The position numbers and the translations under genes were made by a program. From positions 1 through 30,285 of IMG/VR virus record IMGVR_UViG_3300045911_000098: DNA of 30,285 bases. One strand, 5' to 3'. The first letter of the stretch is position 1. Every line of letters starts with the position of its first letter. The notes below the pieces were generated by a model that saw only the letters and a list, made by a program, of their open reading frames with translations, searched no databases and had not been told where the DNA came from. Shown piece by piece: positions 16,544-30,100 of this stretch. The stretch comes from a virus.

Positions 16544-16545
16544 AG

Positions 16546-16582
16546 CAATTTTTAAGGGAGGCACCCTTTCGAGTACCTCCCT
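16546..16582 (-). promoter_or_regulatory. GAAA-capped intercistronic hairpin after SSB, shared motif copy A
   Basis: A 12-bp stem (AGGGAGGTACTC with GGGTGCCTCCCT, two G-U pairs) closed by a GAAA tetraloop, followed on minus by TTAAAAATTG rather than a U-run. It lies between the SSB stop and the next start. The 15 bases CTCCCTTAAAAATTG recur after the RNR gene (7998-8012). Likely protects or processes the upstream mRNA, or modulates the downstream start. Confidence 0.55.
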
Positions 16583-16603
16583 ATAACCTTTCTTAGTGGT
16601 TAA

Positions 16604-17125: not shown

Positions 17126-17185
17126 TTTATACCTTGAAAGTTGAAATTAGAGATCCCTCACCTTGAGGGTTAAGAAAACGGCACT

Positions 17186-17395
17186 TCATTCTGGGCGGTC
17201 TTTAAACAAATCATCCCATTCTTCTTTAGTAATACCTGTCTTTATAAACTCGCGTTGGTCTGCTGTAAGATTAGGAAAGATTTGCTGTATAAGTCCTTCA
17301 CCTCGTTCATAACGATCTAAGTCTTCTTGAGTAATAGGAAGCTCTAAGGTTCTAACAGTTCCACTTAAGACTGATGTCCTAGTTACACTAAGCAT
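17186..17395 (-). CDS. Conserved small protein (69 aa)
   Basis: The C-terminal two thirds read LPITQEDLDRYERGEGLIQ and FPNLTADQREFIKTGITKEE ending WDDLF. I recognise this pattern from small conserved proteins in phages and plasmids, of unknown function, with the LTADQREFIxTGIxxEEW signature. The N-terminus is a short beta segment with Ser/Thr. ATG 17395 has AAGGAGTAAAC upstream, two bases after the previous stop. Probably helical and soluble. Confidence 0.75.
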   Translation of the reverse strand: MLSVTRTSVLSGTVRTLELPITQEDLDRYERGEGLIQQIFPNLTADQREFIKTGITKEEWDDLFKDRPE

Positions 17396-17397
17396 GT

Positions 17398-17799
17398 TTA
17401 CTCCTTATAAGAAAGCGCTGTGAGTCTTTCAGACTCTGCTATGTTAGGGTAACTCTTCACAAACATATTTGGTATTACATAGGAATCACCTCCAGAGTTG
17501 TTATTAATATTTGCAATTAGACTATAAGAATCGTTTAATTTGCGGAAAACATCAAATGTATCGGCAGCAAGTGTGATTGGAAGGAATTGTCCTAAGCTCT
17601 TTGAATATTTTGATGTCAGGATGGACTCCAAATCAAGAAATGTTTCAACTACATAAATACAACCACCCCATGACTCGGAAATTTCATCAGAGAATTCAGT
17701 ACCTGAATCTTTACAAACATCCTTAATAATTTGAACGTCAAGATCTAGTACACCAGGATACTCTTTCATAAATTCTGAAAACTTCGTAAACTTTTTCAT
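17398..17799 (-). CDS. Hypothetical protein (133 aa)
   Basis: Not recognised. It starts with ATG 17799 overlapping the RNA polymerase TGA (ATGA). N-terminal basic helix (KKFTKFSEFMKEYPG), an acidic middle (DSGTEFSDEISESWGG, YVVETFLDLES) and a mixed C-terminus with SLIANINNNSGGDSYVIPNMF. Its coupling to the polymerase gene could mean it modulates that enzyme, as T7 encodes small RNAP partners, but no sequence evidence supports it. Confidence 0.65.
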   Translation of the reverse strand: MKKFTKFSEFMKEYPGVLDLDVQIIKDVCKDSGTEFSDEISESWGGCIYVVETFLDLESILTSKYSKSLGQFLPITLAADTFDVFRKLNDSYSLIANINNNSGGDSYVIPNMFVKSYPNIAESERLTALSYKE

Positions 17800-20033
17800 G
17801 AAAATGCATACTCCGATTGTAGGATTAAGTTTATATCTAATGTACCAAAGTCTATGTCAGAAATATCTGCATGTATATCCTCTAAAATACTAGACAGAGG
17901 ATCTGCTGAATATAACTGAACAAAAGACTCTCTTACAATTTTGAACAAAGCATCCATATCACAAGGTGATGCACCATATGAATCATGGATAGTTGTTACA
18001 GGAAAACTACAGTTATAAACTGTAAGCGCTAAGTGTGCTGCATCAAGACTATGAATAATATTAGGACTTGCTCCTTGCGATTGTTTACCCTTAGCTGGAA
18101 TTGTATCTTCTATAAAAGAAACATTGATCTGCAGAGTATTTTCATAGTATTTTGTTGCAAGACGTTGCCCTTTTGGTGGGCCATACTGTATCCACAGTTT
18201 CTTTACAATACCCTCTGTGTAATGCTGTATAACTGGAAAGTTCGTAATAGGTACAACCCAGCTAAGAAAGCCACCTTCTTCATCTTTTCGTTTACCTGCT
18301 TTTTCAAACACAGACAATAGTTGCATTGGTCTTTTCAATGCAACTCTGCAATCATTATAAACTTGTCTACCAAGAAAAGCAGCCCAAGAGTGTTCAAGGT
18401 ATTGCAACAGTTCTATGCCATGCTTTCTGGCATCATCTATTTGCTGTTGTGAAAGACCGTATGCTGTACCACCATAAGGTAGAGTCATAATATTTCTTTT
18501 CACAATCTTTCTGATATGCTTAAGGTCTTTTATTCGTGTCCAGAATACTGGTGCACAGATTTGGCCAAGTTCAATGTTCTGACCTTTAAAATCTTTTATG
18601 CAACTAACTGCTTCAGCACGTTCATCTGACTTAGGCTCTTGAGAAACAATATTTTTCTTTAGTTGAACAAGGTTGTCTATATATGTTTGACATTCAGCTA
18701 TCTCTTCTTCAGACAACTGCGCAACTTGGGCGTTAATGTTTTGCCATACATGTTCGCCAATATATCTGTATAGGTCTCCAGGAGCTTTAGTTGGGACTAG
18801 ATTGACATGTGGAGCTGTGGTTTCATCTCTAGTCAATGCAGCAAGATGCTGACAACCATTATTACTACCATCAAGAAATATCTCTACACCTGTCATGTAA
18901 TCGTAATTATCAAAGCTACCAATAAAATACTGGTATTCGCGCAGCCTTCTTAATTCAATACACAACGCTAAGAACTGCCAAGGTTTATCAGCAGACATCC
19001 ACCCTTGTTTTTCTTTAGGATTTTCTGCATAAGAAAGCAATTCTTCTTCATGAGCTACCGCCCACTGAAAACGTTCTTCTAATGGGATTTTGTCAGTCTT
19101 CTCTTTATCAGCTCTATCTGAAACATTCGCCCAGTTCGACGCAAGACCAACCATCAACCACCAGTAACCACGTTCTGTAAGCTTCTTAGGCATATCTCTA
19201 AGTAGTAAACCTCTTGCGAGATCAGAACCTTGTTCATGCAGATAGGCTGTCGCTGGATATTTACGACCACGAAAGTCATAGTAGTAAAGATGATAGAAAG
19301 ATTTTCTAAGAAACTTCTTTGCAATAAGACCTATTGCTTTAGCTTCTCGTAACTTAGTTGCTTTTGCCTCTGGATTCTGCATTTCCCATATTTCAGCAAA
19401 TGCATCAGTTTTATTCTTAAGAGCCCAGAGATATAAGTCGAAGATTTCTTTATTAACTCTCCAACCGACTCTTTGAGCCCTATTAAGAACTTCAAATAAA
19501 ACCTTGTGTGTTTCAGGACGTATCAGCGCTAGTACGTCTTTGCTACCTGTTTTTACTATAGGCATTCCTGTAGAATGATATGCTGTTACCCAGGGTTCAT
19601 ATGGTGTCTCACTGGGTAACTTTTCTATTGTTGCTGCAGGTAGTTTTTGCCATAAGTCAGACAGTACATCATCGTTAACTACACGGACGATATACACAGC
19701 ATGACCATTAGAACCTGGCGCAAGATCTAATTCTACTACACCAGCTTCTTGAAAGCTATACAGAATAAAGGCACCAGTTTTAGCAGCTAGAGATGTGTCT
19801 GTCTTTAGTTTGAGTTGTCTACGTACGACATGACCAATAGCACAAATAACTTCTGAGAAGAAAAAATTGTATTTCTTATTACCTTTCTTTGGTCTAGTAT
19901 ACAAGTACAGGGTGCCAATTACTTTATCGATATACTTATTTACATCATGTTCTTTTAAGTACCTTAGAGGATTGTGTTCTGACAATTCAAGCTCATACCT
20001 TTTCATGAGGCTTGAAATTATCTCTTTTCGCAT
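17796..20033 (-). CDS. T7-type single-subunit RNA polymerase (745 aa)
   Basis: Transcribes phage genes from phage-specific promoters. Catalytic points match T7 gp1: motif A LDGSNNGCQHLAAL with D388 (T7 D537), VKRNIMTLPYGG with K512 and Y520 (T7 K631, Y639), the SPNIIHSLDAAHLALT segment, and TIHDSYGASP with H683 and D684 (T7 H811, D812). Length is about 140 residues below T7 RNAP, mostly missing from the N-terminal promoter-reading part. ATG 20033 has AAGGAGATT upstream. It lies in mid-operon rather than at the genome start. Confidence 0.95.
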   Translation of the reverse strand: MRKEIISSLMKRYELELSEHNPLRYLKEHDVNKYIDKVIGTLYLYTRPKKGNKKYNFFFSEVICAIGHVVRRQLKLKTDTSLAAKTGAFILYSFQEAGVVELDLAPGSNGHAVYIVRVVNDDVLSDLWQKLPAATIEKLPSETPYEPWVTAYHSTGMPIVKTGSKDVLALIRPETHKVLFEVLNRAQRVGWRVNKEIFDLYLWALKNKTDAFAEIWEMQNPEAKATKLREAKAIGLIAKKFLRKSFYHLYYYDFRGRKYPATAYLHEQGSDLARGLLLRDMPKKLTERGYWWLMVGLASNWANVSDRADKEKTDKIPLEERFQWAVAHEEELLSYAENPKEKQGWMSADKPWQFLALCIELRRLREYQYFIGSFDNYDYMTGVEIFLDGSNNGCQHLAALTRDETTAPHVNLVPTKAPGDLYRYIGEHVWQNINAQVAQLSEEEIAECQTYIDNLVQLKKNIVSQEPKSDERAEAVSCIKDFKGQNIELGQICAPVFWTRIKDLKHIRKIVKRNIMTLPYGGTAYGLSQQQIDDARKHGIELLQYLEHSWAAFLGRQVYNDCRVALKRPMQLLSVFEKAGKRKDEEGGFLSWVVPITNFPVIQHYTEGIVKKLWIQYGPPKGQRLATKYYENTLQINVSFIEDTIPAKGKQSQGASPNIIHSLDAAHLALTVYNCSFPVTTIHDSYGASPCDMDALFKIVRESFVQLYSADPLSSILEDIHADISDIDFGTLDINLILQSEYAFS

Positions 20034-20069
20034 CCAATCTCCTTATGATAATGGAGGGCACTGTAACTG

Positions 20070-20198
20070 CTATGCTGGTCTTGTAAACATGTATAGAACA
20101 ATAAGGATACCAACTACATAAGCTACTTTAGCGAGTATGATAGTCAGTACACCAATTGCCATTAAAGCGAAAACAGTTTTTAGTACAAGGGTTTTCAT
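20070..20198 (-). CDS. Very small membrane protein (42 aa)
   Basis: The ORF starts at ATG 20198 with KTLVLKTVFALMAIGVLTII, a single long hydrophobic stretch through residue about 38, then MFTRPA. It is a one- or two-TM peptide. No good ribosome-binding site is visible, but it begins just five bases after the stop of the preceding tiny membrane gene, so coupling is likely. It fills the gap before the RNA polymerase. Function unknown. Confidence 0.5.
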   Translation of the reverse strand: MKTLVLKTVFALMAIGVLTIILAKVAYVVGILIVLYMFTRPA

Positions 20199-20202
20199 AG
20201 GT

Positions 20203-20346
20203 TTAAAAAATGAAAACGTCAAAGAACCAAGGTACTATATAAAACGTAAGTGTGAAAAGAACAAGTACATGCATAATGACAAATACAACTAGCAATAGAG
20301 GTTTAAAGGTTGCTAGTAGTATTTGGGCAATTATGACATGTATCAT
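20203..20346 (-). CDS. Very small membrane protein (47 aa)
   Basis: ATG 20346 is preceded by GGAAGG at ideal spacing. The peptide is almost entirely hydrophobic (VIIAQILLATFKP, LLLVVFVIMHVLVLF, TLTFYIVPWFFDVFIF), consistent with one or two TM segments. It is the first gene after the A22 tract and hairpin, and is followed by a second TM microprotein and the RNA polymerase. Role unknown; holin-like or host-membrane effector functions are possibilities only. Confidence 0.6.
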   Translation of the reverse strand: MIHVIIAQILLATFKPLLLVVFVIMHVLVLFTLTFYIVPWFFDVFIF

Positions 20347-20372
20347 GTTCCTTCCTAATTTATGATTCCCTC

Positions 20373-20394
20373 AAAAAAAAAAAAAAAAAAAAAA
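20373..20394. repeat. A22/T22 homopolymer tract
   Basis: Twenty-two consecutive A on the plus strand (T on the transcribed-sense minus strand), just upstream of a tiny membrane gene. On the minus strand it follows a UUCG-capped hairpin by about 25 bases. The exact length in the sequence may be unreliable, since such tracts are error-prone. Confidence 0.8.
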
Positions 20395-20420
20395 GGGGAA
20401 AATTGAAACGTTTGTACAAC

Positions 20421-20440
20421 CCATGACACCGAAGTGTCAT
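20421..20440 (-). terminator. UUCG-capped hairpin, possible terminator or processing site
   Basis: CATGACAC and GTGTCATG form a perfect eight-base stem with a C(UUCG)G tetraloop on the minus strand, about 20 bases after the stop of the 126-aa gene. The U22 run is too far (about 25 bases) for a standard terminator, but the pair may act together. It could also protect the 3' end. Confidence 0.5.
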
Positions 20441-20457
20441 GAGTCGTACGTGTGATG

Positions 20458-20838
20458 TTACAACAACTTTTTTAACTGTACGACGAGATCGTCGTGTTTA
20501 CGTTTGGCTGCTTTCCACAATGCTTCTCTAGTGTTGCTTTGGTTATTTGAATACCACTCAAAGGTGGTATTAAGGCTATCACGTGCCTTTGAAAGCTCGT
20601 GATTTAATCTTTCAATTTCTTCTGCTTTACTTAAAGTATCTTTAAAAAACGTTTTATTTGCAATAAATGTTTTTAAGACACTTTCTGTATGCAAGAAAAG
20701 GTCTTTAACTCTCCACCAATCGCCAGCAAATAAAAGACCAGCAAAAGGTTTGCTTTCGGTAGACCTGCTGTGGAAGAATTTTATATGTGGATCTTTTTTA
20801 CCAGTCCTTGAATTGGGTTTTACTCCTGAAGTAGTCAT
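20458..20838 (-). CDS. Hypothetical coiled-coil protein (126 aa)
   Basis: Unrecognised soluble protein. The N-terminus is basic and polar (TTSGVKPNSRTGKKDPHIKF), followed by a SKPFAGLLFAGDWWRVKDLF core. The C-terminal 60 residues form a probable coiled coil (LSKAEEIERLNHELSKARDS ... KRKHDDLVVQLKKLL). ATG 20838 has no ideal site close by; AAGGAG lies about 25 bases upstream and may serve a leader. It is the first gene of the replication operon, after the strong terminator, so early expression is likely. Confidence 0.65.
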   Translation of the reverse strand: MTTSGVKPNSRTGKKDPHIKFFHSRSTESKPFAGLLFAGDWWRVKDLFLHTESVLKTFIANKTFFKDTLSKAEEIERLNHELSKARDSLNTTFEWYSNNQSNTREALWKAAKRKHDDLVVQLKKLL

Positions 20839-20871
20839 GGAGGCCGGACTTATGTGTCCTTACTCCTTTCG

Positions 20872-20886
20872 AAAAAAAAAAAAAAA
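20872..20886. repeat. A15/T15 homopolymer tract at terminator
   Basis: Fifteen A on plus, then G and six more A. On the minus strand this is the U-run of the terminator at 20890-20940. Length may be uncertain in the read data. Confidence 0.8.
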
Positions 20887-20887
20887 G

Positions 20888-20940
20888 AAAAAATTCAGCA
20901 AAGGAAACGCCTTGGTAGGCGTCTCCTTGCTGCCTACCAC
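20888..20940 (-). terminator. Terminator with a competing hairpin (attenuator-like)
   Basis: Minus-strand AAGGAGACGCC and GGCGTTTCCTT form an 11-bp stem (one G-U) with loop TACCAA, followed by a T-rich run of over 20. Just upstream, TGGTAGGC and GCCTACCA form an eight-base stem whose 3' arm is part of the terminator's 5' arm and loop, so both cannot exist together. It ends the operon of the two membrane/coiled-coil paralogues and precedes the 126-aa gene. Regulation is inferred; termination itself is well supported. Confidence 0.8.
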
Positions 20941-20941
20941 C

Positions 20942-21238
20942 TCAAGTCCCGAAAACGTTCTTTCCAAATTCCTTGAAGCTTTTCTCCGGGATTACTGCTT
21001 TCTTGCGCGCTTCCACAAAGGCGTCCCGACCCTTCGTAAGCTGTTCAATTTCGGTCTGAAGGACATTCTTTTCATTTTCAAACCAATCCACCTCCTTCTT
21101 GGCAGAGACAATCTCCATCTTCAGCAGCTTGATTTCTCTTTCTTGGGACGTGCTCAATTGCCAGGTCATGAAACCCGTGAAGGCCAAGATGGACAAGCTC
21201 GTGAAAGCCACAACCAGAATCTTCTTGAAGTTCGTCAT
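20942..21238 (-). CDS. Membrane-anchored coiled-coil protein B (98 aa)
   Basis: N-terminal TM segment (about residues 6-26: ILVVAFTSLSILAFTGFMTW) followed by a charged coiled coil (REIKLLKMEIVSAKKEVDWF, EKNVLQTEIEQLTKG) and a tail ending AVIPEKSFKEFGKNVFGT. The upstream neighbour has the same architecture and a similar tail (AIMPDKS), so the two are likely tandem paralogues. ATG 21238 has AAGGAGAAACAC. One TM plus periplasmic coiled coil resembles i-spanin shape, but no spanin partner or lysis context is adjacent. Role unknown. Confidence 0.75.
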   Translation of the reverse strand: MTNFKKILVVAFTSLSILAFTGFMTWQLSTSQEREIKLLKMEIVSAKKEVDWFENEKNVLQTEIEQLTKGRDAFVEARKKAVIPEKSFKEFGKNVFGT

Positions 21239-21253
21239 GTGTTTCTCCTTGAG

Positions 21254-21562
21254 TTAGTTGAAAATCCTCTTCAGCCAGGCCCAAACGGACTTATCAGGCA
21301 TAATCGCTTGGTCGAGATCAGCCCTGGCCGCTTCGAGAGATTCGAGCGCTTGGGCTCGATTCATTGAAAGAAGCTCCACCTCCGCTTGGACAACCGCCAA
21401 CTCCGAGACGGTCTTCAGCTTCTGAGCTTCCAACCACTGGATCTGAGGGACTTGATGCGCGATCTTGTAGAAGTACGCACCTCCGATGAACGCTGCAAAG
21501 CCGAGGTTTGCTGCCACCAGAATGGCAACGATGATCTTTTGAAACCAATTCATCTTGTTCAT
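21254..21562 (-). CDS. Membrane-anchored coiled-coil protein A (102 aa)
   Basis: A TM segment at about residues 10-32 (IIVAILVAANLGFAAFIGGAYF) leads to a coiled coil (LEAQKLKTVSELAVVQAEVE, NRAQALESLEAARADLDQ) and a tail AIMPDKSVWAWLKRIF. Paralogous in layout to the next gene downstream. ATG 21562 is preceded by GAAAGG. Codon use is GC-rich relative to the replication genes, suggesting high expression or different origin. A 15-bp hairpin (21595-21633) stands in its leader. Confidence 0.75.
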   Translation of the reverse strand: MNKMNWFQKIIVAILVAANLGFAAFIGGAYFYKIAHQVPQIQWLEAQKLKTVSELAVVQAEVELLSMNRAQALESLEAARADLDQAIMPDKSVWAWLKRIFN

Positions 21563-21594
21563 AAGAAACCTTTCGTAGTTGAGTATTGGGTTTA

Positions 21595-21633
21595 AACCCC
21601 TTAAATACTCCTTTTGGAAGTATTTAAGGGGTT
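21595..21633 (-). promoter_or_regulatory. Perfect 15-bp stem hairpin in leader
   Basis: AACCCCTTAAATACT and AGTATTTAAGGGGTT are exact inverted copies with a nine-base loop (CCTTTTGGA on plus). On minus no U-run follows; it lies about 33 bases before the start of membrane protein A. Candidate RNase III site, transcription pause or protein-binding dyad. Confidence 0.6.
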
Positions 21634-21848
21634 GCTGGTTTTATACTAGCCAGCACTAGTTCGTTATTCCTAGACTCTCTGTAACAAACAAAATCATGAA
21701 GCCTACATTCGATCCGCATAGAATACAATCCCAAGAACACAACGCTTTCGCATATGCTCAAGGGGTTGCATTCAATAAATCTACCAAGACATTCCGGAAT
21801 GCCATGAGTAGAATACCTACTGCAGCTTATCTGTAATACCTTACTCAA
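21624..21848 (-). CDS. Doubtful small ORF (74 aa)
   Basis: The frame opens with TTG at 21848 without a ribosome-binding site and ends inside the hairpin. The C-terminal part from an internal Met (MRIECRLHDFVCYRESRNNE) looks protein-like, with several Cys, and might be a shorter gene of 31 residues starting near 21719. No family recognised. It may be only an open frame in a regulatory region. Confidence 0.3.
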   Translation of the reverse strand: MSKVLQISCSRYSTHGIPECLGRFIECNPLSICESVVFLGLYSMRIECRLHDFVCYRESRNNELVLASIKPATP

Positions 21849-21858
21849 GGGTATTACG
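21834..21858. promoter_or_regulatory. Inverted repeat
   Basis: GTAATACC and GGTATTAC form an eight-base dyad with a short spacer. It lies in the poorly coding stretch 21634-21993 and could be a hairpin or operator. No U-run follows on either strand. Confidence 0.35.
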
Positions 21859-21961
21859 AGATCGTACGGTTATAGGTCTGAGTAAACCTAACTAAATGCA
21901 TTATAAGCTTCCTCCCGCATCTGTTGTTCACCGTAAGTTCACAGAGGCGGGCCATTGTCAT
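21854..21961 (-). CDS. Possible micro-ORF (35 aa)
   Basis: ATG 21961 (or 21955) lies just after GGGAAGGG. The product is basic (ARLCELTVNNRCGRKLIMHL ... RFTQTYNRTIS) with two Cys. Not recognised. Support is only the ribosome-binding site and position in the leader stretch between two supported genes. Confidence 0.3.
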   Translation of the reverse strand: MTMARLCELTVNNRCGRKLIMHLVRFTQTYNRTIS

Positions 21962-21993
21962 ACCCTTCCCAGGGTTTCGACGCTCTTTAAGGA

Positions 21994-22176
21994 CTACTCC
22001 CAAGGTGGCGTCTCGTCAGTGACGACCTGCTTCGGCTCATCGCACAAGAAGAGCGTAAAGCCTGAGATTTCGATAGACTCTACAGGCATGCAGCCGAGAC
22101 GACTATCGTAAAGTATGGAAAGCTCCATACTGTCCGGGTACATCTCAGTTAATTTTCTCAGTTCTCCAAGTGTCAT
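21994..22176 (-). CDS. Small hypothetical protein (60 aa)
   Basis: A convincing small gene: ATG 22176 follows AAAGGCGAAG. It begins with a helix TLGELRKLTEMYPDSMEL, then strands LSILYDSRLG, VESIEISGFTLFLCDE and a polar tail. Short phage proteins often share this T-x-G-E-L-x-x-x-L-x-x-x-P-D start, but function is not known. It is the first gene after the promoter-like box at 22204-22240. Confidence 0.7.
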   Translation of the reverse strand: MTLGELRKLTEMYPDSMELSILYDSRLGCMPVESIEISGFTLFLCDEPKQVVTDETPPWE

Positions 22177-22203
22177 ACAAACTTCGCCTTTCTGAAGAGA
22201 TTC

Positions 22204-22240
22204 TTTCTCTCTTCATATAAGATGGGCACTTTTGCGCAAA
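22204..22240 (-). promoter_or_regulatory. Promoter-like box P1
   Basis: The minus strand carries CATCTTATATGAAGA followed by a purine-rich GAGAAAG, with TTGCG ten bases upstream of the core. The same arrangement with one mismatch in 22 core bases and the same TTGCG spacing occurs at 24438-24473. The core resembles the TATA-GAAGA start region of SP6-type phage promoters; a host -35/-10 reading (TTGCGC, 16 bases, TATGAA) is also possible. It precedes the 60-aa gene. Confidence 0.65.
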
Positions 22241-22283
22241 CTGAATGATACAAAAGACTGACATATAGCAGCTTTTTCGCAAG

Positions 22284-22547
22284 CTATTCCGCATCCCGGC
22301 TCGCCAGGAACGCGTATGCGTTCATCTCCATCCGCCGTTCCCCTTTATCATGTGCCACATCAGCCGCGTCAGCACTCCCAGCGCCATCAACGCCGGAATC
22401 GCCGCTATCGCCAGCAGTACGTACAAAAGGTTCACGCAGTCCATACGTTTCCTCGTCACTTTGCACGCGAGAGGCATGCGCCCATGTGTCCAGTCTGTCT
22501 CGCGCTGTAAAGCGCATAGGCTTTAAACGGAGGTAATTTGTTCCCAT
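22284..22547 (-). CDS. Hypothetical protein (87 aa), overlapped by a nested gene
   Basis: ATG 22547 has GAGGAACAAA upstream. The N-terminal 45 residues (TNYLRLKPMRFTARDRLDTW ... DEETYGLREPF) look protein-like; the C-terminal half is Gly/Ala/Asp/Ser-rich and coincides exactly with the nested membrane ORF in another frame, so its composition may be dictated by that gene. Not recognised. The true protein might end up being the N-terminal part plus a constrained tail. Confidence 0.55.
   Translation of the reverse strand: MGTNYLRLKPMRFTARDRLDTWAHASRVQSDEETYGLREPFVRTAGDSGDSGVDGAGSADAADVAHDKGERRMEMNAYAFLASRDAE
22322..22444 (-). CDS. Nested small membrane protein (40 aa)
   Basis: In a second frame within the 87-aa gene, ATG 22444 has its own GAGGAAACGT site. 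The peptide has a clear TM segment (VNLLYVLLAIAAIPALMALG) followed by VLTRLMWHMIKGNGGWR, i.e. a positively charged cytoplasmic end. The hydrophobic run is far better than chance, so I regard this as a real nested gene. Function unknown. Confidence 0.6.
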   Translation of the reverse strand: MDCVNLLYVLLAIAAIPALMALGVLTRLMWHMIKGNGGWR

Positions 22548-22617
22548 TTTGTTCCTCGTTGCAATAATGCCCTAACGGGTTAAGCGGACGCCGTGCCGGC
22601 GCCAACACAACTTCAAC

Positions 22618-22692
22618 TGGTAGTCCCAACTGGTTTCGAACCAGTGACCTTCGCCTTGTAAGGGCGGCGCTCTACCACTGAGCTATGGGACT
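22618..22692 (-). tRNA. tRNA-Val (UAC)
   Basis: Cloverleaf on the minus strand: acceptor AGTCCCA/TGGGACT, D-arm GCTC...GAGC, anticodon loop CTTACAA (UAC), T-arm with GGTTCGAAACC, and an encoded CCA (22618-22620). One C-A mismatch at the top of the anticodon stem (27-43). Reads GUA codons. Confidence 0.9.
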
Positions 22693-22696
22693 TTTT

Positions 22697-22785
22697 TGGT
22701 GCGCCCAACGGGAGTCGAACCCGTACGACCTTTTAAAGTCGGCGGATTTTAAGTCCGCTGTGTCTACCTATTTCACCATAGGCGC
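22697..22785 (-). tRNA. tRNA-Leu (UAA)
   Basis: Minus strand. Acceptor GCGCCTA/TGGGCGC, anticodon stem GCGGA/TCCGC with loop CTTAAAA (UAA), a long variable arm as in class II tRNAs, T-loop GGTTCGACTCC and encoded CCA (22697-22699). Reads UUA. Confidence 0.92.
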
Positions 22786-22798
22786 ATAATACAATTAG

Positions 22799-22872
22799 CC
22801 TGCCCAGAGGGAGTCGAACCCCCAACCTGTTGCTTAGAAGGCAACTGCTCTATCCAGTTGAGCTATGGACAG
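22799..22872 (-). tRNA. tRNA-Arg (UCU)
   Basis: Minus strand. Acceptor CTGTCCA/TGGGCAG, D-arm GCTC...GAGC, anticodon loop CTTCTAA (UCU) on stem GTTGC/GCAAC, T-loop GGTTCGACTCC. CCA is not encoded here, unlike the other four. Reads AGA. Confidence 0.9.
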
Positions 22873-22878
22873 ATCTTG

Positions 22879-23169
22879 TCACACAGTCCGAAACTTCTCA
22901 TTCTTGCTAAAGTTTCGCCTCAAGCGCTCTAATGCTTGCGGCACCCGCTTCTCGTATTCGGGGTCGATGTCTCCAAGGACATACCGACTCCCGCTTTTAG
23001 TAAAGGCTACATTACCTACTACCAGTAAGAGATTGCTGGTGACAATGTGTGTGCCGTCAGGGAACTGTCTGCTCCCTTTTGTTTTCCCCTGGAGCTTTGG
23101 AACTTTGAGCTCCGGCGCCTCGTATGGACTGCCAGTCGTGCACAACGACCAATTATAAAGAATTGTCAT
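22879..23169 (-). CDS. Hypothetical protein (96 aa) between tRNA genes
   Basis: ATG 23169 follows GAAAGGTAATGA. Beta-rich N-terminus (TILYNWSLCTTGSPYEAPEL), then HIVTSNLLLVVGNVAFTKSG and a charged helical C-terminus (EYEKRVPQALERLRRNFSKN). Not recognised. It sits between tRNA-Ile2 and tRNA-Arg and its composition is GC-richer than the replication genes. Confidence 0.7.
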   Translation of the reverse strand: MTILYNWSLCTTGSPYEAPELKVPKLQGKTKGSRQFPDGTHIVTSNLLLVVGNVAFTKSGSRYVLGDIDPEYEKRVPQALERLRRNFSKNEKFRTV

Positions 23170-23188
23170 TTCATTACCTTTCTAAACT

Positions 23189-23265
23189 TGGTAGGCCGTG
23201 CTGGACTCGAACCAGCGACCAAACGATTATGAGTCGTCTGCTCTAACCTGCTGAGCTAACGGCCC
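23189..23265 (-). tRNA. tRNA-Ile2 (CAU), AUA-reading
   Basis: Minus strand. Acceptor GGGCCGT/ACGGCCT, anticodon loop CTCATAA (CAU), T-arm CTGGTTCGAGTCCAG, encoded CCA. The anticodon and T-arm half closely matches bacterial ileX, with GACGACTCATAATCG and TTTGGTCGCTGG, rather than elongator Met. It is therefore most likely the lysidine-modified tRNA-Ile that reads AUA; elongator Met is the alternative. Confidence 0.85.
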
Positions 23266-23270
23266 TTTTA

Positions 23271-23480
23271 CTACTTTCGACGATACAACAAATCGTCTAC
23301 CTCAAGGAAAAATTCTAGTTCCTCCTCAAAGGTGCTGCAAAACAACCTGTGAGGAAACGTCCGAGTTGCCAACCCAGCTTCAACCTCACCCCGCATGTTT
23401 GCGTCTCTTGCTTTTTCAAGCAAAAGAGTTTTGGCCTCCTGATGGAGATCTTTCAACTTTTTGTAGAGTTCGGGTACCAT
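23271..23480 (-). CDS. Small hypothetical helical protein (69 aa)
   Basis: ATG 23480 has AAGGAGAACAC upstream. Helical throughout: VPELYKKLKDLHQEAKTLLL, EVEAGLATRTFPHRLF, then acidic EEELEFFLEVDDLLYRRK. Not recognised. Located between two tRNA genes and probably transcribed with them from the upstream promoter-like box. Confidence 0.7.
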   Translation of the reverse strand: MVPELYKKLKDLHQEAKTLLLEKARDANMRGEVEAGLATRTFPHRLFCSTFEEELEFFLEVDDLLYRRK

Positions 23481-23518
23481 GTGTTCTCCTTAAACGTGGC
23501 GTCCAACCTTTCTGAACT

Positions 23519-23593
23519 TGGTGCCGACTGTCAGATTCGAACTGACGACCTACCGCTTACAAGGCGGTTGCTCTACCCCTGAGCTAAGCCGGC
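23519..23593 (-). tRNA. tRNA-Thr (UGU)
   Basis: Minus strand. Acceptor GCCGGCT/AGTCGGC, D-arm GCTC...GAGC, anticodon stem ACCGC/GCGGT with loop CTTGTAA (UGU), T-loop AGTTCGAATCT and encoded CCA (23519-23521). Reads ACA. Confidence 0.92.
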
Positions 23594-23661
23594 ACAACCC
23601 GGATTCCATCTGCATGACACGAAACGAATTCGTGCCATTGATGGAGAACACGATAAAGCAT
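23584..23661 (-). CDS. Possible micro-ORF (25 aa) abutting tRNA-Thr
   Basis: ATG 23661 has GAAAGGACTG upstream and encodes LYRVLHQWHEFVSCHADGIR to a TAG that overlaps the 5' end of tRNA-Thr by ten bases. The overlap with a tRNA argues against translation, but the ribosome-binding site is good. Weak call. Confidence 0.25.
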   Translation of the reverse strand: MLYRVLHQWHEFVSCHADGIRVVPA

Positions 23662-23686
23662 TTCTCAGTCCTTTCAAAAGAAAGTT

Positions 23687-23767
23687 TTAAAACTCAAGCG
23701 CTAGAACAATACCCAGCGCGATAGTAGAACCCCATACGATGAGATATTGCCACCACTTTGCCTTCAT
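23687..23767 (-). CDS. Micro membrane peptide (26 aa)
   Basis: ATG 23767 follows GAAAGGTAACA. The product is KAKWWQYLIVWGSTIALGIV then LALEF: a basic N-terminus and one TM helix. It starts a few bases after the stop of the secreted/membrane protein gene, so co-expression is likely. Function unknown. Confidence 0.5.
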   Translation of the reverse strand: MKAKWWQYLIVWGSTIALGIVLALEF

Positions 23768-23769
23768 TG

Positions 23770-24195
23770 TTACCTTTCTGTTTTATAACAATTGGTTGTT
23801 GGCTGACCGCTGTAGTCAGCCTTGCATGTCTTCCCATTAGGGAATGTGATCCACATCTCCCCTGTCTTATTACCCCACTTGTCTAGTCTGTAAGTTTTTT
23901 GGGGCATCAGTCCAGCTCGCTTATTTGCTCGCATTTGAGCATCCTGTGCTTCTTTTGCACGGTTGCTATCCTTGATCGCCTGAGATTTGGCTTTCTGTTC
24001 CTCAGCAAACTTCTTGCTCTCCTCCTGGTGCTTCCTCCAATCCCAAGGCTGCTGTTCAGCAAATGCAACTCCGCTGAACAAAGCCAGCACTACAACAATG
24101 AGAATCCACTTCATCAATTTTCCTTTTTCAAAGACCCACTTGGCAGCCATGAAGGCCGCCAGAGTGAGCGGTACTGCAAGCACAATGTTTTCCAT
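23770..24195 (-). CDS. Exported or membrane protein with two in-frame starts (141 or 114 aa)
   Basis: From ATG 24195 (site AAAGAGAAA) the protein has a TM segment (ENIVLAVPLTLAAFMAAKWV) and then a second hydrophobic run. From ATG 24114 (site AAAGGAAAA) it starts MKWILIVVVLALFSGVAFAE, a good Sec signal peptide with cleavage after AFA. Both starts have good ribosome-binding sites. The mature part has a charged coiled region (RKHQEESKKFAEEQKAKSQA) and a C-terminal beta region with YRLDKWGNKTGEMWITF and GKTCKADYSG (two Cys). Either two products from one gene or one spurious upstream start. Function unknown; periplasmic location is likely. Confidence 0.7.
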   Translation of the reverse strand: MENIVLAVPLTLAAFMAAKWVFEKGKLMKWILIVVVLALFSGVAFAEQQPWDWRKHQEESKKFAEEQKAKSQAIKDSNRAKEAQDAQMRANKRAGLMPQKTYRLDKWGNKTGEMWITFPNGKTCKADYSGQPTTNCYKTER

Positions 24196-24215
24196 CGATT
24201 TTCTCTTTAAAGTAA

Positions 24216-24407
24216 TCAGCTCAAGAAAGGTTGGTAAGGTTCTTCTTTTTCAAAAGCGCCGTTCAACCACATAAAGTGAAAGTACGCGAGAACTCCAAGC
24301 ACAAACCCTGCGGCAGTAAAGCCTAACAGGGCCAAGATAATCGCGACCGGGCCGGCGTCCCATGACAAGACGCCAAGGGCTACAAAAGTAGAAAGAAGGA
24401 AAGACAT
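24216..24407 (-). CDS. Small two-TM membrane protein (63 aa)
   Basis: ATG 24407 with GGAGAAATGAT upstream. Two hydrophobic segments: about residues 3-16 extending into GPVAIILALLGFTAAGFV, and GVLAYFHFMWL, ending in an acidic EKEEPYQPFLS. It is the first gene after promoter-like box P2. Function unknown. Confidence 0.7.
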   Translation of the reverse strand: MSFLLSTFVALGVLSWDAGPVAIILALLGFTAAGFVLGVLAYFHFMWLNGAFEKEEPYQPFLS

Positions 24408-24437
24408 ATCATTTCTCCATTTGGTTAAGAGTCAGAA

Positions 24438-24473
24438 TTTCTATCTTCATATAAGATGGATGTTTTTTCGCAA
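24438..24473 (-). promoter_or_regulatory. Promoter-like box P2
   Basis: Second copy of the box at 22204-22240: CATCTTATATGAAGA then TAGAAAT on minus, with TTGCG ten bases upstream of the core. Twenty-one of 22 core bases agree between copies. It lies between the zinc-ribbon gene and the two-TM protein gene and should start transcription of the tRNA-containing region. Confidence 0.65.
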
Positions 24474-24494
24474 TTTTCTAGTAGCGTGCCTACT

Positions 24495-24662
24495 TTATTC
24501 AGCCTCTCTAATAGTGTCTGTACTACCGCAATATGGACACTCTAAATTGCCAGCGTCTACTGGCCAGACAGCAGTCCATAAGTGTTCACATGTAAGGCAC
24601 TCTGCTCTTCCATGACACCACACCGGTTCTTCTGGATGCGGTTCCGTTAAGGTACCAGTCAT
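24495..24662 (-). CDS. Zinc-ribbon microprotein (55 aa)
   Basis: ATG 24662 overlaps the endolysin TGA (ATGA), so it is translationally coupled. Four cysteines in two pairs, ECLTCEH at about 22-25 and ECPYCGS at about 42-45, make a classic zinc ribbon; an extra C16/H17 lies before. Small phage zinc ribbons are usually nucleic-acid or protein-binding. Its coupling to the endolysin is unexpected, but similar ribbons occur near phage lysis genes. Function unknown. Confidence 0.75.
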   Translation of the reverse strand: MTGTLTEPHPEEPVWCHGRAECLTCEHLWTAVWPVDAGNLECPYCGSTDTIREAE

Positions 24663-24985
24663 ACTGTCCTTTGGAAGTGAGGAGAGTCTTTAAAGGACTT
24701 CCAGAACATGCCAGCTTGATTTGCAGGGTCCAATGATTGCCAATAATGTCCAAGTTCTTCAGGATATATTAAGGACCCATTTTTTGTAAAGTGAAGGTCT
24801 GCAGCACACTTCTTTAAGTGCATACTATTCATTGTCTTAGAACGCCCTGTTTTAATATAGAACTCTTGCTGTTCTACAGTTCTGAAAACTTCACCAATTC
24901 TGACTTCGTAACCTAGCTCATGTGCCTTGTTAATAAGCTTCACAAGATCTCTAGAGAAAGCTTCTTGTTCACGACCTAATGACAT
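24659..24985 (-). CDS. M15-family endolysin, L-alanyl-D-glutamate peptidase type (108 aa)
   Basis: ATG 24985 is preferred over the frame start at 25000 because GAGGAGAAGTGAC precedes it. The zinc site of peptidase M15 is visible: MHLKKCAADLHF (H56, D63) and SPHFQ (H103). The EVFRTVEQQEFYIKTGRSK segment matches the R-T-x-x-x-Q-x-x-Y-x-x-G-R region of phage T5-type endolysins. It cuts the peptide stem of peptidoglycan. It is shorter than T5 Lys (137 aa) but keeps all ligands. Placed after the holin. Confidence 0.85.
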   Translation of the reverse strand: MSLGREQEAFSRDLVKLINKAHELGYEVRIGEVFRTVEQQEFYIKTGRSKTMNSMHLKKCAADLHFTKNGSLIYPEELGHYWQSLDPANQAGMFWKSFKDSPHFQRTV

Positions 24986-24986
24986 G

Positions 24987-25514
24987 TCACTTCTCCTCAA
25001 TTATTTTGGCAATTACAGCATCTTTATTTTGAGAAGATTTACTAGAACCGTAGAAGAAGAATATGATACCGGGTATAATAGTACCAAAAAGAAAGCCCTG
25101 GAATGTGTCAATCATCCTTATATTCTCAGCAGGTACTTCTAAAAAGAAAAGAGCAAATACAAATAGAATAGCAAATAGGGACCAGAGGATAGCGAAGTAA
25201 TAAACAAATCTTTTACTGAAAACATCATCTTGTCTTAAAGCTTCTGATTGCATCTGCCTAGCACTATCTTTATCTTTAAGATAAGCTAGTTCTACTTCAG
25301 ACTGCAGTTTGTTCTCACGTTCTTGAAAACCCCTTAAAGTCTCTTCATGTCTAAACTCAAATTCTCTAAGCTTAACATAATCAGCGTCTCCAAGGTTTGC
25401 TTTATCTACATCAACTCCTGTCTTCTCTTTAAACCAATCCTTCCCTTTAGCAAGGAAGGCATTAGCAAGAAGAGGCAAGCCTTTAGACATCAGTGCCATT
25501 GCAATCGGATGCAT
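24987..25514 (-). CDS. Holin, 3-TM-family type (175 aa)
   Basis: Near the N-terminus PIAMALMSKGLPLLANAF is a hydrophobic/amphipathic helix; residues about 45-100 are a charged coiled region; two strong TM helices lie at about 103-124 (FVYYFAILWSLFAILFVFAL) and 139-155 (GFLFGTIIPGIIFFFYG), followed by GSSKSSQNKD. This matches phage proteins of the Holin_3TMs group, which end with FFYGSS-type motifs. ATG 25514 has GGAGAAATT. It forms pores that release the endolysin encoded immediately downstream. Confidence 0.8.
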   Translation of the reverse strand: MHPIAMALMSKGLPLLANAFLAKGKDWFKEKTGVDVDKANLGDADYVKLREFEFRHEETLRGFQERENKLQSEVELAYLKDKDSARQMQSEALRQDDVFSKRFVYYFAILWSLFAILFVFALFFLEVPAENIRMIDTFQGFLFGTIIPGIIFFFYGSSKSSQNKDAVIAKIIEEK

Positions 25515-25603
25515 AATTTCTCCAGCCTATAAATTTTACATCTACCCGATTGATGGTGATCGGTATTGAAATTTTTTACAATTGATTCCCCGGTATTAAG
25601 GAG

Positions 25604-25669
25604 ATATTAACTAAGCCAAAAGGAAAGAAAACCGAAAAAAGAAAGAAAAGTTATATTAACGATATTAAC
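25604..25669. repeat. ATATTAAC repeats (iteron-like)
   Basis: Three direct copies of the octamer; the last two are nine bases apart. They lie in the AT-rich non-coding region and could be protein-binding sites or part of an origin. In AT-rich DNA some recurrence is expected by chance. Confidence 0.4.
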
Positions 25670-25709
25670 ATAACCTTTATTTCTTCTTAAGGTTCATGCG
25701 TTTGATGGT

Positions 25710-25729
25710 CGTTCCGCTTTCGCGGAACG
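25710..25729 (-). promoter_or_regulatory. GAAA tetraloop hairpin in lysis leader
   Basis: CGTTCCGC and GCGGAACG pair perfectly around GAAA on the minus strand. GC-rich in an AT-rich region and with no U-run, so probably a 5' leader stabiliser or processing site rather than a terminator. Confidence 0.55.
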
Positions 25730-25977
25730 GATGATTAACACTTCTTGATCCTGACTTACGCTAGTATCCTCTTCTAGTCCCTTTAAGTAGTTAGAAAGAC
25801 GTTTAAGCGTATATTAAAGGATTATGTTTTAAGAACTTCTTAAAGATATAAAATACACATACACATATCGCGATAATTTAACGGTATTTTTAACTTTTGC
25901 GAGACTTCGAAGGAAGCAAAAATTCAGGCTACTAAATACGCATTAAGCAATAGGGTGAAACTTCCAAAAATAAGTAC

Positions 25978-26081
25978 AAAAAAGCGGCCCAGAGTGCCTC
26001 GCGACGCCCACCGATGGGGGCAGCGATGGGCACCTCGCGGTTGGAGCACTCCGGACCAGTTTGCATTGCTAGCGGGCAAAC
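25978..26081 (-). terminator. GC-rich structured element / large hairpin terminator (copy 2)
   Basis: Minus-strand outer stem GGTCCGGAGTGC with GCACTCTGGGCC (12 bp, two G-U), a middle stem CGCGA/TCGCG and inner stem GCCCATCG/CGGTGGGC, then GCTTTTTTG. A small hairpin GTTTGC/GCAAAC with GCTAGC in its loop precedes it, and the TAG there is the stop codon of the GNAT-like gene. It ends the tail operon. Related in sequence to the plus strand of the element at 2317-2413. Confidence 0.75.
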
Positions 26082-26542
26082 CTGTCTATGCTTTTCAGGG
26101 CAACATGACCGTGCCTAATCCAGCCAAGCTTTTCGAGAGAACGTGATAAGACTTGCCTAGAATCCGTAGGAGAGCAAGTTGATATACAGAAGTCAGCTTT
26201 AGTATGAATCGAAGCCGTGTACATCTCAGTATGTAATAATTGTAACGCCTTCACGGCTCTATAACCTTCAAGGTCTGATGCATAGTACTGCTGCTGAAAA
26301 ATTAAAGATTTAGAATGCAATAACGTTGCTATATCTGCAAAAATCCATGCAACAATTCCTCCGGAATCTTCTCTTAGTAACTTTACAAACTTTTTTCGTT
26401 TTACTGCATAGGTCAGATTTGCGATAGCAATTGCATCATCCTTAGGTATTTCATACACGTTCTTATAGAGCTCGACGCATTCTTTTATGTCGTGCATTGA
26501 TTCTATATTTGATAAATGCATGTTAGATCTACCATTAATCAT
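26069..26542 (-). CDS. GNAT-like acetyltransferase-fold phage protein (157 aa)
   Basis: The C-terminal part SRSLEKLGWIRHGHVALKSI is the ending I know from small phage GNAT-type proteins, and GGIVAWIFAD ... HSKSLIFQQQYYASD corresponds to the central strands. A clear acetyl-CoA loop (Q/R-x-x-G-x-G/A) is not evident; GYRAVKALQLLHTEM is the likely position. It may be a degenerate or non-catalytic member. It follows the tail-fibre assembly gene, and its TAG stop is within the structured terminator element. Start at 26542 is preferred; M8 is an alternative, both with weak sites. Confidence 0.65.
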   Translation of the reverse strand: MINGRSNMHLSNIESMHDIKECVELYKNVYEIPKDDAIAIANLTYAVKRKKFVKLLREDSGGIVAWIFADIATLLHSKSLIFQQQYYASDLEGYRAVKALQLLHTEMYTASIHTKADFCISTCSPTDSRQVLSRSLEKLGWIRHGHVALKSIDRFAR

Positions 26543-26569
26543 TAACTTACGTTATCCAGGTTAGTCTCG

Positions 26570-27166
26570 TTACCAAATGATGCTATTTAATTCGGTCTCG
26601 TCTTGAGCTGCTAGTATTGCTGCTCTCTTGTTTTCAAGTTTTTCTTTTAAAGTCTGCGTACGTTGTCTTACAGCCTTATGTAATCTAAGAATTTGAGTAG
26701 CATTCAAAGTTATAAACGAGTTATCTAATAAAAACCATTTTACAGAGAATGTCTCATTTTCTATCTTGGCTGTAGCCGCTTCTTGAGCAGCCTCTAGTAT
26801 TAATGCTTTAGAAGCTGCATTTGCTTGAAATGCAACAGAATTATAGGTAATAGGCTCTTCATTTTCTTTTTCAGCTAACTTCTTAAATTCAAAAAGCTTA
26901 TCTCGCTTTTTCTCATTTAAATCTCTGAGATCTTGCCAGGTTCTAGTTTGTGGGTCCCATTTGTGACCAAGACGAGCCTCTCTTTTCAAGAGCAACTCAG
27001 AAGCAGTATACTCAAACACCTGTCCATCTTTTACATAATAGTTTTCTATTTTACAATCTTTTGGCAAGTCTGCAACTATATGAGGTTCAAGCAAAAGAAC
27101 CATTGGACTAACTGGAGTAATTGATAAAATATGACCATCTACATCGTGTCTAACATAGTGTTCCAT
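26570..27166 (-). CDS. Tail fibre assembly / DUF4376-type protein (198 aa)
   Basis: N-terminal region with VLLLEPHIVADLPKDCKIEN, then KWDPQTRTWQDLRDL, the junction typical of phage tail-fibre assembly proteins before a DUF4376 domain. The latter continues with LNEKKRDKLFEFKKLAE and a long helix ending LNSIIW. Such proteins are usually encoded right after the fibre gene and act as chaperones or are fibre-tip components. ATG 27166 overlaps nothing but lies one base after the fibre stop; its ribosome-binding site is poor. Confidence 0.75.
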   Translation of the reverse strand: MEHYVRHDVDGHILSITPVSPMVLLLEPHIVADLPKDCKIENYYVKDGQVFEYTASELLLKREARLGHKWDPQTRTWQDLRDLNEKKRDKLFEFKKLAEKENEEPITYNSVAFQANAASKALILEAAQEAATAKIENETFSVKWFLLDNSFITLNATQILRLHKAVRQRTQTLKEKLENKRAAILAAQDETELNSIIW

Positions 27167-27167
27167 A

Positions 27168-30100
27168 TTAAACTTTTATAAATTGTAATGAGCCATACCC
27201 TACATAACTCAAACCAATAGCTCCTACTTCTATAGTTATATACGTATCGAGTTGGTAAAAGATTGGGAATATTCTTATACCCATCTCAATATAATCAAAA
27301 TCTGCTGGATTGACATCAAAAGAAGCAACATTTCCAAATGGAATATTCCATTTTCTATTAGTTGCACCAGGTATTGTCAACGTCTGTGTAACCGTATTTG
27401 TAGCGAACCATTGAGTCCAGTTTTGAGTCGCTCTCTCTCTCAAACGCCATGCCACAGCTGTACTAAGAAAGAATTTATACCATCCGTGCAAACTTGCACT
27501 ATCTGTCCAAGCTACGTAACCTTGCTGCTCTATCAGTACATTATCTCCCGCTATTGCTCTTGGCAAGCCACCAGTGTCAAACCAAATAGCATTTCCGCTT
27601 CCAAAAGTAGTCAATACATTTGGTGTGGCAGAGCCATAACTGAAAGAGCTGTTTAAGGAATTTACAACTTGATTTACTTTTAATTTATCCGTAGTAATAG
27701 TATTTGCAATTAGCTTGTCAGCATGTAAACTGCTTATCTGCGCATTTCCAACAGCAAGATTTGCAATGTATGTCGAGGCTGTTTCTGGTTTAATAGGATT
27801 TCTACCACTTATAGCACCACCAGCCAGAAGTGCATCCATAGGAGTTTCTTTACCATCAATGACTTCTACTCTAGGATCATAGAAAGCTGTTACAGAGGCA
27901 TCTTGCGTAGTATAGTATTGATAAACACGTAAACGTAATTGGTTCTTGCCATTATAATTTCTTTGTCTAAAAGCAAAATTATTATTAAAGATTTTGGTTC
28001 CTGCTGTAGTATCCCATACACCACCATGATCTGCTATATTTGTTCTATTAGTATCATTGAAAGGAAAAACATAACCGGTAACAAGATACCAACGACCAGG
28101 AACAAAACTACTTCTATTCCATGAGCCAAAGTACACATTAAACTCTTTCTCTACACCATCAGCTGCATTTAATAAGCGTACTCCAGCAACATCTTCCGCC
28201 GCATAAAGACCAAAGAATATAGAACCAGTAGAAGAAGCCCCAGAAACTTGGAAATAAATACTAAATCTGTATAACTTGGTTGGGTCTGCAGGAAAGTATG
28301 GTGTATGAAACCCGCCTTCTGCATTCTCCGAGGTTGCAGCACCAGACCGTGCGTACCATACTTGTACAGGAGTGCTTTGACTTGGACCATAAAGAATACC
28401 TATATTATTATATCCATTAGGTCCACTAGTTGGGTTTATAAGATAATCAGAAGGTAAAGTTCCTGGATTATTGTTGTAACCTATTGCATTATTCTTCCAG
28501 CTATTAGTGCTTATTAAGTTGCCTTCAGTTACAGGAACCAGCGTTTGAATATTAAGGTTAGAAACAATTGTATTAAGATGAAAAATTGGAATTTTTACAT
28601 AAACTCCATTAGGAAAAGAAATACCTTGTTGCCAAACAAGGCTACCATTCTTGTATAAGAATACTGCACGCCCGTTGTATTCAAAACAAAAAGTATCATT
28701 ATCAGCTTGCGTTGTTACAGGATAAATAAGTGAGCCGCTCTGATTGTAAATAGCTACTTGAGTACCAGAAGGGTGTACTGCAAAATGATTAGATTCATTC
28801 CAGCCTGAATTTGTCACAGCTTCTGTAAACATTATCATGAATCCATTGCTAAGGTTTCCTGAATTTACAGTCCAAGTAACAGACACAGCTTTATATCTTA
28901 TAGGACTATACATAACGGCGTCCCAAGCAGCTGCAGCACCGCTCGTTTTCTTTACATTAGGGCCGTATTGAGTACAGTTGCTTAAATTTATTAAATAAGT
29001 ATAAGTCGCAAATGCAAGTCCACCTGGTGTATTCCCTGCAACAAGAATTGGTGTACCATCCGAAGAATAAATATTTAGACCTGTACCATTAATTCGATCT
29101 GCAGTAAGCTGTCCTGTAGTAATTTTTCCTGCATCTAAATTTGGTATATACGCACTTGGTAGCTGATTGGTATCTCCGGACTTAGTACTTAGAATTATAT
29201 TTCCAGACTCATCTCTTACTCTAAGACCTCGAAATTCAGCGTATCCATCTGAGCCAATTATTGTCTTATTAGTACCAATAGTAATAGAACCTGCGGTAAT
29301 TGCGCCAAGATTTGCACTAATTGCAGATAAAGAACCAACTTTAAAAGATGATAGGTATGGTGCCGTCCATACGGTATTACCAGTAGCTGGGTTGTAAATA
29401 CCATCAATCTGAAAAAGCTTTTCTCCAGCAACTAATGCATGTACGGTTGCTGAAAAGCCTTTTCCACTCACTACAGTACCTCCCCAAACACTATCTAGAG
29501 GAAATGTAGAAGAACCGGAAGTAGTGCTAGTTGTAGGTGTAGTTCCAGGGTCTGCCGTATATACTATATAAGCAGTACGATAAGAATTTCCAGCTGTACC
29601 TGTACTACCCGTAGTACCTTGAGTACCTTGTCGAGCTTTAGCAAATGTCTGCGTTAAAACCAATGATATAGCGGAACCGTCCGCTCTCTTACCAGTTATC
29701 GTATAATTAATAGAAGCTGTGTCTGCCGTAGCGGCTGAGTGCGCACCATAGACAGCATGAGCACCACCATCTGACTTAGTACCAACAGTTATTGAAGTAC
29801 CTACTGCAGTAACGTTCCATGTACCATTAGCTGTTCCAGTGCCATCATACTCTAAAGCTGTAGCTCCTTCATACAACCAAACTTGTGTACCAGAATTAGC
29901 ATAGGAAGAAACAGTACCAGCACTATCTGCGGGCAATACATGAGCACTATTTGTTAAGAATGCTGTAAGAGCGTTTTTTCCGTTTGTACCAGGAGCACCT
30001 GCTGTACCTGTAGCACCATCGGCTACTGCAGGAATGATTTCCTGATCAAGTAATGTAGTAAAGCCACCAGCTTGATACAATTGTACTCTTATTAATTTAG

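Follow-up and report, generated by a model that had tools for sequence, protein, structure and literature searches.

Two copies of a conserved promoter-like element near the single-subunit RNA polymerase gene of a phage fragment related to Naomviridae, and candidates for the enzyme that reads it

What are the two near-identical boxes that lie on either side of a cluster of tRNA genes in the viral DNA fragment examined here, and which RNA polymerase would read them? The fragment, referred to as the window, is a linear 30-kb piece of a virus (30,285 nucleotides; IMG/VR record IMGVR_UViG_3300045911_000098), and the boxes are copies of a sequence that we call element A. Comparison with relatives indicates that they most likely belong to a family-wide promoter of ~65–80 kb tailed phages related to Naomviridae. 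Two single-subunit polymerases come into question as readers, a 745-aa enzyme encoded in the window and a fusion protein encoded by its relatives.

Both boxes are 36 nt long and lie on the minus strand, the strand of every window gene to which a function could be given. Box 1 (22239–22204) has the sequence TTGCGCAAAAGTGCCCATCTTATATGAAGAGAGAAA, with the layout GCG ... AAAA ... CC ATCTTATATGAA and a predicted +1 at the G at 22214, and box 2 (24473–24438) has the sequence TTGCGAAAAAACATCCATCTTATATGAAGATAGAAA, with a predicted +1 at the G at 24448. The two are 83% identical with no indel between them and have in common an exact 15-mer core, CATCTTATATGAAGA, which occurs twice in the window against ~0.0002 occurrences expected from base composition. 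On a 40-column position matrix derived from relatives, both boxes scored 34 bits; the next-best site in the window scored −0.6, and the highest score of any site in 100 Markov-shuffled windows was 13.5. This matrix scan revealed no further strong copy of element A in the 30-kb window, in agreement with an earlier note on this DNA, which had located both boxes without giving their strand. The note had also placed each box just before a small gene with a ribosome-binding site, and this holds: the site is followed by an ATG at +39 behind box 1 (gene 22176–21994, minus strand, 60 aa) and at +42 behind box 2 (gene 24407–24216, minus strand, 63 aa), neither product having a family match. That the boxes are parts of a duplicated DNA segment, an explanation raised in the same note, was ruled out, as the likeness does not extend past the boxes and the genes on either side are unrelated.

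The five tRNA genes (Thr, Met, Arg, Leu and Val; 22618–23593, minus strand) lie between the boxes, which had been described as bracketing the tRNA region. This is correct for their position, but not for the direction of transcription, along which box 2 is upstream of all five tRNAs whereas box 1 is downstream of them and is directed, via small genes, towards the gene of the 745-aa polymerase (17796–20033, minus strand), 2.2 kb downstream of box 1. The further suggestion that the boxes serve only this accessory region did not survive, because box 1 reads into the polymerase block and relatives carry distal copies. In addition, the relative with the closest polymerase found first (G001, 59% identity) carries TTGCGGGAAACGAGGTATCTTATATGAAACC in the position of box 2, between its lysis genes and first small gene, although no tRNA was found by ARAGORN in the 22 kb around that box; a tRNA-specific promoter is thereby ruled out.

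To what extent is element A a property of the family? IMG/VR was scanned with the pattern TTGCG-N(8–14)-ATCTTATATGAA, in which the spacing was left free. A spacing of N11 was found in 54 of 66 matches and N10 or N12 in none, and a polymerase of the 745-aa type was encoded in 34 of the 39 N11 records tested, compared with none of eight records with other spacings. When 16 genomes or long fragments were scanned, with each genome's own sites left out of the matrix, all 50 sites (two to three of them weak) were on the polymerase strand; no site was found on the opposite strand and none with a reversed matrix. To control for bias, loci were picked by the polymerase protein alone, contigs from the motif scan were removed and at least 3.5 kb of upstream sequence was required. 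Element A was present upstream of the polymerase gene in 39 of 39 such loci, a set that includes near-identical loci and so does not amount to 39 independent cases, and their 1.05 Mb contained 90 sites on the polymerase strand, none on the opposite strand and none with the reversed matrix.

Element A is present in 1–5 copies per genome as one contiguous conserved element with fixed spacing. In most genomes one to three boxes precede the polymerase gene by 1–6 kb, and many relatives have one or two additional copies 12–29 kb downstream of it. In eight genomes the distal box lies near a DHH gene and ahead of a small gene, for which seven clear orthologues and one weak match (in G010) were identified. 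The window has an orthologue of this gene at 2177–1590 (minus strand, 48–63% identical to those of the seven relatives) but, unlike the relatives, no element A in front of it.

With the G of TATATG taken as +1, the family consensus, GCG-S-AAAW-N3-GGT/CC-ATCTTATATGAA, consists of an A/T-rich stretch (−30 to −24), GCG (−22 to −20) and then a G/C, AAAW (−18 to −15), a gap of two to three unconserved bases, GGT or the rarer (T/C)CC (−12 to −10), and ATCTTATAT (−9 to −1), which includes a TATA-like part (−5 to −1) and leads into a GAA start. T7-class promoters have an A/T block at about −17 to −13, a specificity block at −12 to −5, a TATA element and a purine start. The SP6 promoter has GGT at −12 to −10 and that of T3 CC at −11/−10, as in the element A variants. 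The promoters of SP6, T7 and T3 resemble element A in being contiguous, with an A/T block at about −17, a variable triplet at −12 to −10, a TATA-like part and a start of G plus purine; they differ in that element A has the extra GCG at −22 to −20, a core of ATCTTATATG rather than CACTATAG, and only 1–5 copies per genome, mostly before the polymerase gene.

The transcripts predicted to start at these sites often begin with a hairpin. In box 1 it spans 22194–22214 on the minus strand (GAAGAGA-gaaagaa-TCTCTTC, −9.2 kcal/mol), and 5′ hairpins were found at 64% of 87 distinct sites, compared with 27% of shuffled sequences (mean energy, −4.9 versus −2.1 kcal/mol). The signal fades once folding starts at +3 or later, indicating that the 5′ arm begins at about +1. 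A ribosome-binding site and ATG mostly follow 15–65 nt past the predicted start.

The conserved ~30-nt element, its fixed spacing, its confinement to one strand and the genes led by ribosome-binding sites behind it make it very probable that element A is a promoter. That it is of the single-subunit-polymerase type, with the start at the G of TATATG (22214 and 24448) and transcripts that are often hairpin-led, is also likely, in line with the type proposed in the earlier note and with the A/T block, the GGT or (T/C)CC, the TATA-like part and the GAA start. Because the case is a comparative one, element A could instead be some other strand-specific intergenic signal, acting in RNA processing, replication or packaging. 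We regard this as highly improbable in view of the one to three copies before most polymerase blocks, joined in many genomes by a distal one, the ATG mostly 15–65 nt downstream, the TATA-like core and the 5′ hairpins near the predicted +1.

Might element A then be an early promoter for the multisubunit RNA polymerase of the host, possibly with a phage activator bound to the TTGCG/GCG block? Most phages begin with the host polymerase, the GCG lies ~12–14 nt before the TATA-like part in an activator plus −10 layout like that of the T4 MotA box, and the variant of element A in phage DSS3_VP1 holds a perfect TATAAT. However, the family core TTATATG is a poor −10 element, and a sigma-70 scan (−35/−10 hexamers, 16–18 nt spacing) reported neither box. 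Nor are the T residues at the start of TTGCG conserved, ACGCG and CTGCG also being found, and the near-invariance from −22 to +3 exceeds the needs of a host promoter. A host-read element A thus appears improbable.

Of the two phage enzymes, the 745-aa protein is a T7-family RNA polymerase, as the earlier note had recognised: it has the PF00940 domain (4.8e-68), the catalytic Asp/Lys/Tyr/Asp motifs and a T7 fold, it matches phrog_414 (1.5e-107) and T7 RNA polymerase (phmmer, 5.8e-40), and its AlphaFold model (predicted local distance difference test, pLDDT, 89.5) matches 1cez in Foldseek (1.3e-29). The second single-subunit polymerase came to light through weak secondary hits of the polymerase search, as a protein of ~1,550 aa that all near-complete genomes, and DSS3_VP1, encode. 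It is a MuF-type minor head protein that combines an N-terminal Phage_Mu_F head-morphogenesis domain (PF04233) with a C-terminal single-subunit polymerase domain, and is encoded at 17861–22498 in G001, 23651–28294 in G038 and 21242–25633 in DSS3_VP1, where the 1,463-aa product is annotated merely as minor head protein-like, with orthologues elsewhere. The catalytic motifs DHRARIY, EQDASSSGAQ, KAQNMVTFYGAG, NGNHSNDA and TIHDAFF are invariant in complete copies; G034, G018 and G006 have a split gene. A structure model of the protein (pLDDT 74) has Foldseek matches to T7 RNA polymerase (E ~1e-14) and also to the annotated virion-encapsulated RNA polymerases of N4-like phages. All six contigs >65 kb that were picked by the fusion protein encode the 745-aa polymerase and carry an element A box.

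Several polymerase genes are interrupted. The fusion gene looks split in EBPR siphovirus 1 (JF412302, 25771–31144), where an HNH endonuclease gene lies between its halves, and in G018, where its frame ends early (16074–19295). In G018, too, two group I introns (Rfam RF00028) lie within the RNA polymerase gene (L174, 1678–1938 and 3366–3570). The polymerase gene of G003, G012, G027, G035, G019 and G048 is broken at about residue 520, which is the active-site tyrosine (LPY|GG). Both halves share one continuous frame in G019 (994 aa) and in G048 (926 aa), where an intein is possible.

A second conserved element, element C, has the consensus ACCCCGTTAA(A/C)TTAACCC, that is, ACCCCGTTAAmTTAACCC. In 16 genomes, 58 copies were on the polymerase strand and four on the opposite strand, located before lysis genes, 2.8–3.5 kb past the polymerase gene start and at a distal site; in G001 a copy also lies between the fusion gene, which it directly follows, and the capsid genes. 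Element C is often trailed by a CCCTC..GAGGG hairpin, and it varies by clade (CCGTTAAATTAATGAT in G031 and G016, CCGTCAGTTTAAGGG in G018), whereas element A hardly varies. Two degenerate copies were identified in the window by synteny, both on the minus strand: TGCCGTTTTCTTAACCC followed by a CCCTCAAGGTGAGGG hairpin at 17183–17167, right after the polymerase block, and TGCCGGTAATTTAACCC at 2282–2266, behind the DHH gene. In several relatives element A is found 35–46 nt behind the distal copy of element C; this is not so in the window, and an initial reading of ~2257–2282 as a decayed element A site was dropped, since the site is better read as a copy of element C. No element C was found in G025, and a de novo repeat search there for a replacement gave none. 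Element C is possibly a middle or late promoter.

The distribution of the two elements bears on the question of the reader. Element A lies before the polymerase block and one distal small-gene block but not before late genes, whereas the pattern of element C is wider and of a late type. A polymerase that arrives packaged has to act first, and its promoters are needed in front of exactly these two blocks, while late genes need the newly made enzyme; the layout of element A therefore fits the fusion protein. Natural variants point the same way. In G025 the 745-aa polymerase is an outlier (mean identity of 50% versus 56–61%) with a specificity loop 13 aa shorter, but the fusion polymerase is ordinary (63%) and element A is standard. 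L249 has an altered specificity loop, a standard element A and no element C within the stretch examined. Taken together, the layout, these two variants and the conservation of element A where element C is not conserved favour the fusion polymerase, to which we give an even chance of being the reader.

The alternative is that element A is the promoter of the window's own 745-aa polymerase, which would then act in positive feedback, with element C read by another enzyme or by the same one. Element A has a T7/SP6-like anatomy and accompanies every 745-aa polymerase gene that has enough sequence upstream of it. Yet its place is before the polymerase gene, not behind it, and it is missing from the late blocks, which have element C, and G025 and L249 retain their standard element A despite strongly altered specificity loops. 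Nor did the GT or CC at −11/−10 covary cleanly with residues of the specificity loop: the equivalent of T7 residue 748 in CC genomes is A in G000, G in G004 and S in G018, and G016 has both GT and CC types. We therefore consider this alternative doubtful, and the earlier proposal of an SP6-like system stands for the type of promoter but is questionable in naming the window polymerase as its reader, given the second polymerase in relatives and the fit of element C to the 745-aa enzyme. The weights assigned to the four readings of element A are judgements, not computed values.

Several observations weigh against the fusion polymerase as reader. In L245 a divergent specificity loop of the 745-aa polymerase accompanies altered element A sites (TATATAGAAG), the covariation expected if the 745-aa enzyme read element A. 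Single-subunit promoters are usually ~23 bp long, and the conserved GCG (−22 to −20) falls outside this length. An N4-type inverted repeat at −11 (5–7 bp stem, short loop) was not found: a 5-bp stem was present at none of the 87 sites and a 4-bp stem at three. The fusion gene lies outside the 30-kb window fragment, and the prediction that its product is packaged in the capsid and injected comes from the MuF domain (PF04233) alone. Presence and absence cannot separate the readers, as every long contig holds both polymerases together with element A; EBPR siphovirus 1 has the fusion, but its record is partial. Finally, the RNA polymerase of KP34 recognises two unrelated promoters (PMC6834552), and one enzyme could likewise read both A and C.

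If the fusion polymerase is the reader, it would travel in the virion and be delivered along with the DNA, as happens in N4, and would read the boxes first, so that the tRNA and small-gene block and the 745-aa polymerase gene are transcribed. The 745-aa polymerase would then read element C before the replication, capsid and lysis genes; in DSS3_VP1, early transcripts would start at about 35820, 36267 and 67804 and later ones at AATAGGGTGCGTTAAAG elements. We tentatively propose, at somewhat short of an even chance, such a cascade of two single-subunit polymerases in a widespread lineage outside the N4 group, in which an injected MuF fusion reads element A as a linear double-stranded early promoter and switches on a 745-aa enzyme that reads another promoter, the faster-evolving element C. 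Like the system proposed here, N4 (PMC4496689) has a virion-type polymerase, a second phage polymerase in the early block, and early promoters that are few and confined, but element A lacks the hairpin centred at −11. The virion polymerase of N4 is also larger (~3,500 aa versus ~1,550 aa for the MuF fusion), and the second polymerase here is one chain.

How far does this arrangement extend among named phages? The nearest are DSS3_VP1 (Noahvirus arc), a cultivated phage with Ruegeria pomeroyi DSS-3 as laboratory host, and DSS3_PM1, both of the Naomviridae, with 35% polymerase identity. DSS3_VP1 has no close element A box, but a repeat search revealed AAAAAGTGAGAAAACTAAGGCATCTATAATGA at 35790 and 36237, both upstream of its polymerase, and GCATCTATAATGA again at ~67793 as a distal copy, giving the same three-site layout, which is shared by DSS3_PM1. 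Of this variant of element A, GGCATCTATAATGA, the two upstream copies are exact and the distal one, 25 kb downstream, has a single mismatch. About 10 copies of another element, AATAGGGTGCGTTAAAGAGGGGGA, lie after the polymerase and before the terminase, tail, portal and other structural genes. The Naomviridae resemble the present family in polymerase (35%), MuF-polymerase fusion (~32%), element A variant and gene order around the polymerase, and differ in the core (GGCATCTATAATGAAGA), in having AATAGGGTGCGTTAAAGAGGGGGA as the second element and in that few other window proteins match. The window, a fragment, is described here as related to Naomviridae on the basis of homology to DSS3_VP1. EBPR siphovirus 1 (JF412302) has a relative of the MuF-polymerase (62% identical) and copies of an element like C, and its partial record does not include the region of the 745-aa polymerase and element A.

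The genes of the window are arranged in the order tail fibre, lysis, tRNAs, polymerase, and DNA polymerase with replication genes. An endolysin and a possible membrane protein (24659–25514, minus strand) are encoded upstream of box 2, and the lysis block precedes the element A box in relatives also. Poly-T runs of ~15–22 nt on the coding strand lie between box 1 and the polymerase gene (~20373–20395 and 20875–20895), with similar runs in G006 and G031. A GC-rich element of ~120 bp forms an inverted pair (2314–2436 and 25957–26080) in long intergenic stretches of this AT-rich phage. A ribonucleotide reductase with a B12-dependent (class II) insertion domain is encoded at 8031–9929; it is 73% identical in G018 and had no match in five of the six relatives of the window family that were compared. 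A pyrimidine dimer DNA glycosylase (PF03013) is encoded at 13434–13877.

A literature search, which left most subscription papers outside, found no description of element A promoters or of the MuF-polymerase fusion, and the novelty of both is provisional. If the proposed cascade is true, the delivery of a phage-encoded single-subunit transcriptase into the host would extend beyond the N4-like phages, to a group in which the virion polymerase is joined to a MuF head protein and works on a plain linear promoter. The family would also offer two polymerase/promoter pairs as candidates for orthogonal use, each with dozens of natural variants, and the early/late programme of a common, hardly studied group of phages would become testable.

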